Positions 4,197 through 10,235 of a DNA stretch of 43,302 nucleotides are shown here, one piece after another (positions within the stretch are counted from its first letter, which is position 1; each line of letters begins with the position of its first letter). The DNA comes from Deltaproteobacteria bacterium. Lineage in GTDB: Bacteria; Desulfobacterota; Desulfobaccia; Desulfobaccales; 0-14-0-80-60-11. The position numbers and the translations under genes are program-made. The notes under the pieces are model-generated. The model saw nothing but the letters and a program-made list of their open reading frames with translations. It ran no database searches and had not been told where the DNA came from. The stretch is from NCBI GenBank assembly GCA_016875015.1, contig VGSJ01000018.1:1-43302 (forward strand), read 5' to 3'.

Positions 4197-5132
4197 TTAC
4201 GCCAACTGGGGTCTGGGATAGAGGCCGCCCCGTTCCACGATTTCCTGGACTTTCTCCTCCCACTCGATGGCCATGATGTGGAAACCCCGGACGCCTTCCA
4301 CTTCTTTCAGTTCCTGGATCTGTTCCACTGCCAGGGTGATGCCTTCCTCGGCCTGCTTTTCCTTGGGGACGCCGCCGATGCGCCTGATGATGTCGTCGGG
4401 GACATCCATGCCCGGCACCCGTTTTTGCATGTATTTGGCCATGCCCACGTTCTTCATGGGGGTGATCCCCGCCAGGATGGCCACTTTTTCATGCAACCCC
4501 CGGTCCACCATCAGTTTCATGAACTCTTTGAACTTGTCCAGGTTGTAGATGCACTGGGTCTGGATGAACTGCACCCCGGCCGCCACTTTCTTGGCCAGGC
4601 GCGACACCCGCATGGCCACGTTGGGCCCCGCGAAGGGGTTGGCCGCGGCGCCGATGAACATCTGGGGGCGCACCGCAAATTCGTGGCCGCCCAACAGTTT
4701 GCCCTCATCCCGCATCATCTTCACGGTCTGGATGAGCTGGATGGAATCCAGGTCAAAGACGTTGGCGCACTTGGGGTGGTCCCCGAAGTGCTGGTGGTCC
4801 CCGGTAAGGCAGAGGATGTTGTGGATGCCGAAGGAGGCGGCCCCCAGAATATCGCTCTGGAGGGCGATGCAGTTTCTGTCCCTGGTCACCATCTGGAGAC
4901 ACGGCTCCAGCCCCATGAGCTTGAGGCGGATGCAGCACGCCAGGCTACAGACCCGGCAGACCGACGTCTGGTTGTCCGTGACGTTGATGGCATCGACGTA
5001 ATCCTTGATCAGGTTGCCCTTGTGCTCGATCACGGCGCCATCGGCGCTCCGGGGCGGACCGACCTCGGAAGTAACCGCAAAGTTGCCCGAGGCGATCATC
5101 TTCTGCAGTTTGCTGGGAGTAGTCACACTCAT
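4197..5132 (-). CDS. metF: 5,10-methylenetetrahydrofolate reductase (MetF family)
   Basis: 311-aa ORF; MetF-type 'VTSEVGPPRSAD', 'LCLTGDHQHFGDHP', 'GVQFIQTQCIYNLDKF'; 4-bp overlap with upstream metV-like gene. Confidence 0.88.
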   Translation of the reverse strand: MSVTTPSKLQKMIASGNFAVTSEVGPPRSADGAVIEHKGNLIKDYVDAINVTDNQTSVCRVCSLACCIRLKLMGLEPCLQMVTRDRNCIALQSDILGAASFGIHNILCLTGDHQHFGDHPKCANVFDLDSIQLIQTVKMMRDEGKLLGGHEFAVRPQMFIGAAANPFAGPNVAMRVSRLAKKVAAGVQFIQTQCIYNLDKFKEFMKLMVDRGLHEKVAILAGITPMKNVGMAKYMQKRVPGMDVPDDIIRRIGGVPKEKQAEEGITLAVEQIQELKEVEGVRGFHIMAIEWEEKVQEIVERGGLYPRPQLA

Positions 5133-5797
5133 ATCCGTAAATCCTCTCTGACGATCGTGCGCGGTCCGCCGTCCCGGGAAGTGGTCCAGTCCTTGGGATC
5201 CACGGGTTTCTCAAAGCGGTCCAGCTGTCCCAGGGTTTTTAGCCGCTCGTAGATCAGCTCCCAGCCGCAGGGGACGTCCTTGCTGATTTCGCACTTGCCC
5301 TGGTCGGAGCCGCCGCAGGGGCCGTTGAGCATGCGCTTGGAACATCGGGCGATGGGACAGACCCCGCCGGTTTCGGCCAGGATGCAGCGTCCGCAAGCCT
5401 GGCAGCGCTCGGCGTAGAGCCCCCGCTCCTCGTTGACCCCCAAAAAGCAGGTGTCCACCCCGGGGTAGATGATCTTGTTGTTGTACATCTCCGCCATGTA
5501 CTGGACCCCGCAGCCGCACGCCAGGGAGACCACGGCGTCGTAAGCGTCCATCTTGTCGGAGAGTTGCGCCAGGTATTCCTTTTCGCACTGCCGGGTCAGG
5601 CTGGTTTCGTCAATCTGGGCCTGCTTGCCTGCCTGGGTAAAGTAGAGCCTCAGGGCCGAGGCCAGCACCTTGGCTTCTTTCGAGCCGCCGGCTTCGCACA
5701 CGGTGACGCAACCGTCGCAGCCGACAATCAGCACTTTGGTGAAGTCTTTGACCAGGTCGAGGACTTCTTCCAGGGGTTTGGGCACTGCCTTGATCAT
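5129..5797 (-). CDS. metV: Methylenetetrahydrofolate reductase C-terminal / MetV-like zinc/FeS protein
   Basis: 222 aa; Cys-rich 'GCDGCVTVCEAGGSKEAKVLASAL', 'CQACGRCILAETGGVCPIARCSKRMLNGPCGGSDQGKCE'; overlaps neighbours on both sides. Confidence 0.85.
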   Translation of the reverse strand: MIKAVPKPLEEVLDLVKDFTKVLIVGCDGCVTVCEAGGSKEAKVLASALRLYFTQAGKQAQIDETSLTRQCEKEYLAQLSDKMDAYDAVVSLACGCGVQYMAEMYNNKIIYPGVDTCFLGVNEERGLYAERCQACGRCILAETGGVCPIARCSKRMLNGPCGGSDQGKCEISKDVPCGWELIYERLKTLGQLDRFEKPVDPKDWTTSRDGGPRTIVREDLRI

Positions 5798-6249
5798 GTG
5801 GTTACCTCCGCAATGGGCCTGACGGCCTTTCCTGTCGCAACTCTGATGGGACTGGGACCCAGTTCCATCACTTTTTCGGTGATCTCCCGGATGATCTCGG
5901 CGAACCGCCCGCCCATCCCGGAAGTCAGATTGTACATCGCCAGCCGTTCGCCGCCGACGCCGACTTTGTCCAGGATCTCCTTCACCCGGTTGCCCCGTTT
6001 TTTGGCGTAAAGATTGCCGGCGCCATAGTGGCAGTCCCCCTCCAGGCAGCCCATCACGATGACCCCGTCGGCCCCGTACTCAAAGGCCATCAGCAGGTGC
6101 ATGATGTCCACCTTGCCGGTGCAGGGGACCTCGATAATCCGCACGCTGGGCGGGTACTGCAATCGCATCGAACCTGCCAGGTCCGCGGCGGAATAAGCTC
6201 AGTAGTGGCAGCAAAACCCGACAATCTTCGGCTCAAACGATTCCATCAT
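5794..6249 (-). CDS. mvhD: MvhD-like hydrogenase iron-sulfur subunit, probable selenoprotein (in-frame UGA at 6201..6199)
   Basis: The track starts at 6168, but the frame is open from ATG 6249/6246 except for one TGA: M M E S F E P K I V G F C C H Y [TGA] A Y S A A D L A G S M R L Q Y P P S V R. 'GAGGAG' SD lies just upstream of ATG 6249; TGA occupies a family cysteine position. Confidence 0.85.
6164..6187 (-). promoter_or_regulatory. Candidate bacterial SECIS hairpin downstream of UGA
   Basis: Minus strand: CGC-GGACCU-GGC-AGGUUC-gau-GCG; 6-bp stem plus 3-bp extension across a bulge, small G-starting apical loop beginning 20 nt after the UGA. Confidence 0.6.
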
Positions 6250-6257
6250 CGGACTCC

Positions 6258-9200
6258 TCAATATAAAGTTTTGATCTTGGCGCTGATCTGGTCGTCTTCA
6301 AAATGGGCCACCTGGATGATCTTGGCCGGACATTCCGAGGCGCAGGTGCCGCAGCCCTGGCACAGGGCCTCGTTGATCTCCGAGACGTTGTCCCGGCTGA
6401 TCTGCGGAATACCGTAGGGGCAGGTCCGGACGCACACCAAGCAGGCGGCGCAGCGGTCCGGTTCCACGTGGGCGGTGATCCCGCTGATGGTCTGGTTGAC
6501 GTCCGCCAGGAACGCCCCGGCCCGGGAGGCCGCGGCCATAGCCTGGGCGATGCTCTCATTGATGAGCTTGGGGGAATGCGCCATGCCGCAGAGGAAGATG
6601 CCTTCCGAGGCAAAATCCACCGGCCGCAGCTTGGCGTGGGCCTCGATGAAAAACCCGCCGGCGTTCCGGGGGATTTTCAGGAGCGACGCCAATTCCTCGG
6701 TATCGGCGGCCCGGGCCCCGGCGCTCAACACCACCGCGTCCACGGCCATGTTGATGGGGCGGCCCAGCACGTGGTCCACAAAGGTGACGCTCAACTGACC
6801 GTTGTCGTTATTGACCTGGGGCAACCGGTCCGGCTCGAACCGGGAAAAGAGCACCCCTTTCTCCCGGGCCTCCCGGTAGTAATCCTCCAGGAACCCGTAG
6901 GTGCGCATATCCCGGTAGAGGATCACCACGTCCATGTCGGGGTTGAGGCCCTTGAGCTGCAGGGCGTACTTCACCGCCCCCTGGCAGCAGAGGCGGCTGC
7001 AGTTGGGGCTCTCGTCGTTCCGGGAGCCCACGCACTGCACCATAACCACCCGGTCCCACTTGGCGGCCGAGTCCTTCTCCCGGTGGAGAAAATCGCCCAG
7101 TTCCAGCTGGGTCATGACCCGCTCGTGTTCCCCGTAGAGAAATTCCTTGGGATGGTACTCATGGGCGCCGGTGGCCACCACGGTGATCCCGTGATCGATT
7201 TTCCGCTCGTACATGCCGGGCCCCACCAACACTTCCGTGGTGAAGTTGCCTTTGTAGCCGATGAAACCCACCACCAGGGCGCTCGTGAGCACCTGAATCT
7301 TGTTGTGGGCCTTCACTTGCTCGATGAGCCCGTCCAGGTAGGCCTGGACGTCCAGGCCCTCGATGGTTTTGTGGACCCGGCGGGCGTTGCCGCCCAGTTG
7401 CGGTTCTTTTTCCAGGAGGATGGTCTCAAATCCCTGGTCGCCCAGATTGAGGGCCGCGTTGAGGCCGGCGATGCCGCCGCCGATGACCAGGGCCCGCTGG
7501 TTGATGCTCAGGGGCTTTTCCATCAACGGCTTGAGCAGGGAAGCCCGGGCCACCGCCATCCGGACCAGGTCCTTGGCCTTGTCCGTGGCCTTGTCTTGCT
7601 CCTTCATGTGCACCCAGGAGTCCTGGTTGCGGATGTTGGCCATCTCAAACAGATACTTGTTCAAACCGGCGTCGGTCAACGTCTCCCGGAACAGGGACTC
7701 GTGGGTGATGGGGGTGCAAGCCGCCACCACCACCCGGTTGAGGTTGTGTTCCTCGATGATTTTGGTCATCTGGACCTGGGTGTCCTGGGAACAGGTGAAC
7801 AGGTTTTCTTCCACGTACGCTACATTGGGCAGCGTCTTGACATATTCCGCCAGGTCCGGCACGTTAACGATGCCGCCGATGTTGATGCCGCAGTTGCAGA
7901 CGAACACCCCGATACGGGGGGCGTCTTCCGGCCGGATGGCCTTGGGTTCGGGCGTCTTCTTGAGCCTGGTTTCGGTCCAACGGACATCCCCCAAAGAGGC
8001 GCTCACCGCCCCGGCTGCGGCCGACGCCTGCATGACCGATTCGGGAATATCTTTGGGGCCCTGCATGGCCCCGCTGACATAGATGCCCGGACGGCTTGCC
8101 GACACGGGCGCGAACGGCGAGGTGGCCACAAAATCGTGGGAGTTGGCGTCCACCCCCAGAGTAGAGGACAACTCACGGCTCGCCTGGCTCACCTCCATGC
8201 CCACGGACAGCACGATCAGGTTAAAGGTCTCGATCTTCTCTTCGCCGCTTTCATCCGCATACCGGACCTGCAAATCGCCGTCGGCCAAGGGATCGATGCT
8301 GTGGATGCGGGAACGGACGAACCGCACGCCGTGCTCGTCTTTGGCGCGGTTATAGTAGAGTTCAAAGTCTTTGCCGAAGGTGCGCATGTCCATGAAAAAT
8401 ATGGCGGTATCCAGCGGATAGGAAGCATGCTCCTTGGAGATCACCGCCTCCTTGATGGCGTACATGCAACAGACCGAGGAGCAGTAGGTGTGATATTTAA
8501 CATCCCGGGAGCCCACGCACTGGAGCCAGGCGATCTTCTTGGGCTCGGCGTGGTCCGAGGGCCGGACCAGGTGGCCGCCGAAAGGCCCCGAGGCCGAGAG
8601 AATCCGCTCGAACTCCAGCGAGGTCACGACATTGGGGAAATGGGCGTAATGGTACGTCGGATACTGGCTGGGATCGAAGGTCCTGAAACCCGGGGTCAGG
8701 ATCACCGCGCCCACTTCTAGGTCCCTTACCTGATCCTTTTGTTCCAAGTCCACCGCCCCGGTGGGACAGAACTTTTCGCAGGCCTTGCATTTTCCACCTT
8801 TCTTAAAATAGATGCAGCTGGCCTTATCAATGGCGTATTTAAGGGGCACCGCCTGGGGATACATGACGTAGGCCGACTTGCGGGTGCCCAGTCCCTGGTT
8901 GAATTCGTCCGGCACCTTTTTGGGACATTTCTCGGCGCAGACGCCGCAGCCGATACACTTGGCCAGGTCGATATAGCGAGCCGGTTGGGTTATTTTGACG
9001 GTAAAGTGTCCCGGGACTCCGTTGATGCCCTGCACCGTTGCCGGAGCCAGAATTTCGATGTTCAGGTGGCGGCCGCACTCCACCAGCTTGGGGGAAAGGA
9101 TACACATGGAGCAGTCGTTGGTGGGGAAGGTCTTGTCCAACTGGGCCATAACCCCGCCGATGGCCGGCTTGTTTTCCACCAGATACACATAAAAGCCCGA

Positions 9201-9320
9201 GTTGGCCATATCCAGGGCCGCTTGGATTCCGGCGACGCCGCCACCCACCACCATCACCGCGCCTACATTGCCGGAACGTTGGGCTGATTCTTGAGCCGTC
9301 ACGTCTTTTTCTTGGGGCAT
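6258..9320 (-). CDS. hdrA: HdrA-like FAD/iron-sulfur protein, double module
   Basis: 1020 aa; two FAD motifs ('VMVVGGGVAGIQAALDMANSG' and 'ALVIGGGIAGLNAALNLGDQG'), 'NDCSMCILSPKLVECGRH', ferredoxin clusters 'CIGCGVCAEKCP', 'CAACLVCVRTCP', 'CQGCGTCASECP'. Confidence 0.9.
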   Translation of the reverse strand: MPQEKDVTAQESAQRSGNVGAVMVVGGGVAGIQAALDMANSGFYVYLVENKPAIGGVMAQLDKTFPTNDCSMCILSPKLVECGRHLNIEILAPATVQGINGVPGHFTVKITQPARYIDLAKCIGCGVCAEKCPKKVPDEFNQGLGTRKSAYVMYPQAVPLKYAIDKASCIYFKKGGKCKACEKFCPTGAVDLEQKDQVRDLEVGAVILTPGFRTFDPSQYPTYHYAHFPNVVTSLEFERILSASGPFGGHLVRPSDHAEPKKIAWLQCVGSRDVKYHTYCSSVCCMYAIKEAVISKEHASYPLDTAIFFMDMRTFGKDFELYYNRAKDEHGVRFVRSRIHSIDPLADGDLQVRYADESGEEKIETFNLIVLSVGMEVSQASRELSSTLGVDANSHDFVATSPFAPVSASRPGIYVSGAMQGPKDIPESVMQASAAAGAVSASLGDVRWTETRLKKTPEPKAIRPEDAPRIGVFVCNCGINIGGIVNVPDLAEYVKTLPNVAYVEENLFTCSQDTQVQMTKIIEEHNLNRVVVAACTPITHESLFRETLTDAGLNKYLFEMANIRNQDSWVHMKEQDKATDKAKDLVRMAVARASLLKPLMEKPLSINQRALVIGGGIAGLNAALNLGDQGFETILLEKEPQLGGNARRVHKTIEGLDVQAYLDGLIEQVKAHNKIQVLTSALVVGFIGYKGNFTTEVLVGPGMYERKIDHGITVVATGAHEYHPKEFLYGEHERVMTQLELGDFLHREKDSAAKWDRVVMVQCVGSRNDESPNCSRLCCQGAVKYALQLKGLNPDMDVVILYRDMRTYGFLEDYYREAREKGVLFSRFEPDRLPQVNNDNGQLSVTFVDHVLGRPINMAVDAVVLSAGARAADTEELASLLKIPRNAGGFFIEAHAKLRPVDFASEGIFLCGMAHSPKLINESIAQAMAAASRAGAFLADVNQTISGITAHVEPDRCAACLVCVRTCPYGIPQISRDNVSEINEALCQGCGTCASECPAKIIQVAHFEDDQISAKIKTLY

Positions 9321-9362
9321 AATCCTATCCCTTATAACCCTGATAAAATTCTCTGGAGTCAG

Positions 9363-10235
9363 CTATAAACCGGCCGCCGCCAGGATCGACGGCAGTTTGT
9401 CCTCCCACCCGATGGTGGAAACCAGCACTCCCGGGAACCCCTGCTTTTTTACGGCAGCCACGAATTCTGCGGCGATCTGCACACACTCCCGCACCCGGTC
9501 GGAGCTTTTCTGAATCCGGGTGACGAAAGCCTCCGGGATTTTCATCTCCATGTGGGTGTTGATGTAGCGGGCCATGCCCACACTCTTCAAGAGCATGACC
9601 GTGGGAATGATGGCCGCCGGGCGCTTGCCCACCTGACGCCGGAATTTCTCCAGGACTTCCACGTCGAAAACCGGCTGGGTGGTGAAAAACCTGGCCCCCG
9701 CGGCAATTTTTTTGTCCAGGTCCGCCAGTTCCTGCTTCAGGGCTCCGGCATCGCCGGTCACCTTGACGGTTGCGCCCACCAGGAATTGCGGCGCGCCTTT
9801 GAGATCCACCCCGGCCAGGTCCCGGCCGGTCTTCAGGGTCTGGATGGCCGCGAGCAGTTCCAGGAGATTGAGGTCGTTAACCGCCTTGGCCTGATGATGG
9901 TCGCCGTGGGTGATCTCGTCTCCAGCCACCGCCATGACATTGGGGATGCCCAGGGCCTGCGCCGCCAACAGGTCGCCTTGCAGCGCCAAGCGGTTGCGGT
10001 CCCGGCAGCATACCTGCATCACCGTTTCCAGTCCCTTGGTTTGCAAAAGGAGCGCGCCGCCCAGAGAACTCAACCGCATCACGGCGTTGTTCATCTCCGG
10101 GACCACAAAGGCGTCCACCATCCGCTTGACGCCGGTGGCGCTGGCCACCATACTGGAAACATCCGTGCCTTTGGGCGGTTCCATCTCCGCCAGAATGACG
10201 AATTCGCCGGAAGTCAATTTCTCTTGTAATGGCAT
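9363..10235 (-). CDS. Second MetF-family methylenetetrahydrofolate reductase paralogue
   Basis: 290 aa; 'FVILAEMEPPKGTDVSSM', 'NVMAVAGDEITHGDHHQAKAVNDLNLLELL', 'GARFFTTQPVFDVEVLEKF'. Confidence 0.85.
   Translation of the reverse strand: MPLQEKLTSGEFVILAEMEPPKGTDVSSMVASATGVKRMVDAFVVPEMNNAVMRLSSLGGALLLQTKGLETVMQVCCRDRNRLALQGDLLAAQALGIPNVMAVAGDEITHGDHHQAKAVNDLNLLELLAAIQTLKTGRDLAGVDLKGAPQFLVGATVKVTGDAGALKQELADLDKKIAAGARFFTTQPVFDVEVLEKFRRQVGKRPAAIIPTVMLLKSVGMARYINTHMEMKIPEAFVTRIQKSSDRVRECVQIAAEFVAAVKKQGFPGVLVSTIGWEDKLPSILAAAGL

Follow-up and report, generated by a model that had tools for sequence, protein, structure and literature searches.

A predicted bacterial SECIS with an unusually invariant hairpin in the mvhD gene of a Desulfobacterota genome

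Introduction

In the fdhF-type selenocysteine (Sec) insertion sequence (SECIS) of Escherichia coli, a small G-rich loop is read by SelB. Here, we describe a predicted bacterial SECIS (bSECIS) that lies directly downstream of an in-frame UGA in mvhD, on the minus strand of contig VGSJ01000018.1 (assembly GCA_016875015.1) of a deltaproteobacterium of the Desulfobaccales; the window referred to below is the whole stretch analyzed, 43,302 nucleotides (nt) long.

Selenoproteins of this family have been described before. A review of 2026 lists MvhD/VhuD (PF02662, with the motif CxxU) as a selenoprotein and is the source of the bSECIS rules applied here, namely 16-37 nt from UGA to loop, a stem of 4-16 bp and a minimum free energy (MFE) of -7.5 kcal/mol or lower; for the archaeal members, it places the SECIS mostly in the 3' untranslated region (UTR) (PMC13188914). 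A study of 2006 counted FrhD selenoproteins among Deltaproteobacteria and Clostridia, used bSECISearch to find their SECIS elements and also reports remnant hairpins in Cys descendants of FdhA and of a HesB-like protein (PMC1794560). Desulfobacterium autotrophicum HRM2 has four Sec mvhD genes, mvhD1, mvhD2, mvhD3 and mvhD5 (PMC2702500), and mvhD of Desulfococcus multivorans is annotated with a UGA and a SECIS (PMC5109826). Bacterial Sec-MvhD with a SECIS is thus already known, and the present hairpin is a further example of a known signal, with an unusually invariant sequence; in the literature searched, which took in few subscription papers and no preprints, we found no account of this near-invariance or of its explanation.

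The present gene resembles the Sec-containing MvhD, FrhD and VhuD of these reports (PMC2702500, PMC5109826, PMC1794560) in family, in predicted Sec at the same motif Cys and in an adjoining hdrA, those genes belonging to sulfate-reducing relatives, but it sits between hdrA and metV-metF. Its hairpin lies inside the coding region, in contrast to the mostly 3' UTR elements of archaeal members (PMC13188914). Compared with the bSECIS consensus of that review, it is alike in its position 3' of the UGA, 3-nt loop, G at loop positions 1 and 2, spacing and stem length, whereas its 15-nt hairpin is almost invariant across the phylum and recurs in Bacillota, in Acidobacteriota bins and in an FCB-group bin.

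The mvhD hairpin and its fold

The hairpin is, with near certainty, a bSECIS that directs Sec incorporation at codon 17 of mvhD, SelB binding and readthrough in the cell being predicted. The gene and the parts of the element are as follows:

5794 to 6249, minus strand: mvhD, 151 amino acids, start ATG at 6249, predicted Sec at codon 17; PF02662, E=5.6e-48, 162 bits
6199 to 6201, minus strand: in-frame UGA (6201-6199) predicted to be read as Sec, mvhD codon 17, context FCCHY-U-AYSAADLAG
6169 to 6185, minus strand: upper hairpin of the predicted bSECIS, CGGACCU-GGC-AGGUUCG, 7 bp (6185-6179 with 6175-6169) and a 3-nt loop
6170 to 6184, minus strand: near-invariant 15-nt core GGACCUGGCAGGUUC, 6 bp plus loop
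6176 to 6178, minus strand: apical loop GGC, with G at loop positions 1 and 2 and 20 nt between UGA and loop
6164 to 6190, minus strand: whole predicted hairpin, which adds a 3-bp lower stem CGC/GCG (6190-6188 with 6166-6164)

The encoded protein has the FlpD/MvhD domain with a UGA at the motif Cys, and in alignments its UGA position (FCCHY-U-AYSAADLAGSMRLQYP) falls on Cys of homologues. This codon column holds UGA in 101 genes of the clade and Cys (TGC/TGT) in 123 homologues, and PDB entry 9sfi_K has an X in the same column.

The 38-nt segment that begins with the UGA (minus strand 6201-6164, UGAGCUUAUUCCGCCGCGGACCUGGCAGGUUCGAUGCG) folds in RNAfold as CGC..CGGACCU[GGC]AGGUUCG..GCG at -12.4 kcal/mol, and the central hairpin is identical in all four sequence contexts folded. 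A preliminary description made from the sequence had proposed a candidate bSECIS at this site and gave its sequence, coordinates, 20-nt spacing and tiny G-first loop correctly; its hairpin stands, with an upper stem of 7 bp rather than the 6 drawn, and what was drawn as a 'gau' bulge is a 2x2 internal loop that separates this stem from the 3-bp CGC/GCG stem. That folding might prefer another structure was a concern that was not borne out, the mean pair probability of the 7-bp helix being 0.96. In the terms of the bSECIS rules, the hairpin lies directly 3' of an in-frame UGA inside a coding region, its 20-nt spacing, 7-bp stem and GGC loop fall within the allowed ranges, its MFE of -12.4 kcal/mol for the 38 nt (lower stem included) is below the limit, and the genome encodes SelA, SelB, SelD and tRNA-Sec. 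We weighed counting the lower CGC/GCG stem towards the element and decided against it because it is not conserved, its two outer positions being paired in 54-58%.

With the ribosome at the UGA, SelB carrying Sec-tRNA(Sec) would bind the hairpin by its G-first loop, and Sec would then be inserted at MvhD codon 17, where other MvhD proteins have Cys, instead of termination.

Sec and Cys homologues

Homologues were gathered by a protein search blind to the hairpin, covering 40 relatives and 247 genomes of the phylum; genes retrieved with the exact hairpin pattern, having been selected for the core, do not enter the conservation percentages. Across homologues the hairpin is far beyond chance, and its association with UGA is strict: the identical core GGACCUGGCAGGUUC occurs in 94/101 UGA genes as opposed to 0/123 Cys genes (Fisher p ~2e-55, relatedness ignored), which supports the candidate reading of the preliminary description. 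Apical-pair probability exceeds 0.5 in 88% of UGA genes versus 0.8% of Cys genes.

The hairpin overlies conserved coding sequence, and the preliminary description had allowed that some of the structure could be coincidental. Among genes that encode the peptide ADLAGS, however, the codons GCG-GAC-CTG-GCA-GGT are used in 94/100 UGA genes and in 0/38 Cys genes, while in the UGA genes the codons flanking the hairpin are free to vary. The 23 close Cys orthologues from Bacillota, which mostly encode this peptide too, are without the hairpin, and none has the core. Since same-peptide Cys genes use other codons, the hairpin is hardly a mere product of coding constraint, and Cys orthologues do not keep it equally, the outcome that had been named as fatal to the proposal.

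In this genome, which has a listed completeness of 99.96%, there are genes for tRNA-Sec (anticodon TCA), selA, selB (639 amino acids) and selD, the last with an in-frame TGA of its own. A paralogue on another contig, mvhD2, has UGA at the same codon and an identical 21-nt hairpin segment (GCGGACCUGGCAGGUUCGAUG) at a protein identity of 60%; both the UGA and this segment are absent from the Cys paralogue, which lies on a third contig. G-rich loops also top the hairpins of selD (CCUCC-CGGGGUUUU-GGAGG, at +17) and of fdhA, another UGA gene of the genome (GGUGGCC-GGUCU-GGCCGCC, at +18). The mvhD element shares a small G-rich loop with the E. coli fdhF type, to which the GGUCU loop of fdhA is similar, but carries a GGC loop on a 7-bp stem, and an fdhF-like bulged U is not seen in it.

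Spread and near-invariance of the core

A search of GTDB genomes for TGA-N14-core returned at least 118 stretches, and 117/118 among the matches listed are Sec-MvhD, which makes the 15-nt core with TGA at fixed spacing a highly specific search string for these genes. The matches listed are mostly from Desulfobacterota, with others from Bacillota (Desulfovirgula, Desulfotruncus and a Peptococcaceae bin), two Acidobacteriota bins and one FCB-group bin; placements in the last two groups are tentative because bins can be mis-assigned.

The near-invariance is probably a coding lock, in that the stem overlies ADLAGS, a conserved peptide. Every silent base of the stem would pair with a base of the opposite arm that is fixed by an amino acid, and the first loop G is the last base of the Leu codon; if every silent base is paired in this way, the near-invariance is explained. 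When ADLAGS was recoded in place in all 4608 synonymous ways, the top four for strength of the natural helix were distinguished solely by the third base of the Leu codon, that is, the first loop base, for which the natural CTG gives a G-first loop. We infer that five silent bases are fixed by pairing with amino-acid-fixed partners and that the sixth is held by the loop rule. The locus offers a clean natural case in which one RNA stretch encodes an unchanging peptide and at the same time holds an unchanging recoding signal, and hundreds of UGA and Cys homologues serve as controls.

Where the core does vary, all seven variant UGA genes still fold a G-first hairpin at the site, by way of a bulge, a register shift or a U-G pair. 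The alternative register GGACCU-GGCA-GGGUCC, which scores better in the energy model, occurs naturally in L361 and L390, in which the third position of the Ala codon is set free and varies (A, U). L094, L382 and L384 keep the top CCU/AGG, and beneath a bulged C the stem pairs anew, as GGA/UCC in one of them and as UGA/UCA in the other two, two silent bases having changed together; in L363 a U-G pair replaces U-A, and L388 has a bulged A. The outermost stem pair is retained in 74%. Among the pattern matches listed, those with Ala changed to Gly (C to G) all have the matching C in the Ser codon: GGG goes with TCC in 10/10 versus 43/107 for GCG (p=2e-4, relatedness ignored). A broader proposal, which we regard as possible but somewhat doubtful, is that the mvhD SECIS forms a distinct, near-invariant bSECIS class, frozen by bases shared with the peptide so that neither arm drifts, passed with the gene between phyla and read by SelB beyond the loop G.

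Alternative explanations

Several observations weigh against the bSECIS reading. The hairpin energy does not exceed chance in comparison with shuffles (z from -1.06 to +0.85), the isolated 7-bp stem reaches -6.9 kcal/mol, so that the -7.5 limit is attained only with the non-conserved lower stem, and few lineages bear on the covariation (L382 and L384 belong to one genus), since the core hardly varies. The protein tree yields three well-supported independent Sec/Cys pairs and none to the contrary, too few for significance, and L264, from a Desulfonema magnum genome, is a Cys (TGC) homologue with the exact SECIS core, the sole exact Cys exception met and a probable relic of a recent Sec-to-Cys conversion. 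When a loose hairpin filter is applied, 8-20% of all TGA triplets in the window pass, as do 15-45% of the Cys homologues; with energies near those of shuffles and the filter so often satisfied in the background, folding alone proves nothing, and neither measure, as it gave no separation from background, was used as evidence. These same figures are what would favor a coding accident of the peptide ADLAGS, with no role for the hairpin and another element serving the UGA. We consider this very unlikely, given that the same-peptide codons occur in none of 38 Cys genes as opposed to 94 of 100 UGA genes, that none of the 23 Bacillota Cys orthologues has the core, and that codons outside the hairpin are free to vary in UGA genes.

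The UGA might instead be a genuine stop codon, or stem from a sequencing error or the decay of a pseudogene, and translation would then restart at the in-frame ATG downstream (6168-6166), and UGA is indeed the ordinary terminator of hdrA and mvhD. Its presence at the same codon in 101 genes of the first clade throughout the phylum, and also in genes from further phyla, the frame remaining intact downstream, together with the complete Sec gene set of the genome, makes this extremely improbable. An in-frame UGA within a conserved gene could also reflect genome-wide reassignment, for example to Trp or Gly, in which case a SECIS would be unneeded; but UGA ends hdrA and mvhD of the same operon at conserved protein ends, the aligned residue is Cys in homologues and tRNA-Sec is present, so that we give this idea practically no weight.

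Other MvhD hairpins and UGA sites

A second Sec-MvhD clade (...GAADLAGVSR...; L288, L289, L290, L301-L330, L447-L453) has a different, nearly invariant hairpin, CUGGA-GUU-UCCAG, with its loop about 28 nt after the UGA, and variants such as L119 refold (UAGCCGG/CCGGCUA). Many MvhD genes with Cys at the first site have a stop triplet (TGA where listed) at the second conserved Cys (the GC of VxGC, codon +51), amounting to 57% of Cys homologues long enough to tell, for example L365, L369, L380 and L389; L273 has UGA at both Cys sites. Five Cys genes (L410, L411, L414, L415 and L421) retain GCAGGUUC with an altered 5' arm, a partly decayed hairpin, and are perhaps older Sec-to-Cys conversions.

Genomic context

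The neighbors of mvhD give the gene order hdrA-mvhD-metV-metF:

6258 to 9320, minus strand: hdrA, 1020 amino acids, no in-frame UGA, ordinary TGA stop, directly upstream of mvhD
5129 to 5797, minus strand: metV-like protein, methylene-tetrahydrofolate (THF) reductase C-terminal domain, PF12225
4197 to 5132, minus strand: metF, PF02219

Only a few bases separate hdrA from the mvhD start, and mvhD terminates at an ordinary TGA, which forms the tetranucleotide ATGA with the start codon of metV. Sec may have a role in electron transfer to HdrA. Automatic annotation would cut mvhD at its UGA, and the present reading corrects this within a predicted HdrA-MvhD-MetV-MetF electron-transfer module. The hdrA-mvhD-metV set is flanked by two metF-like genes (4197-10235, minus strand), an arrangement that suggests a methylene-THF reductase electron-bifurcating module.
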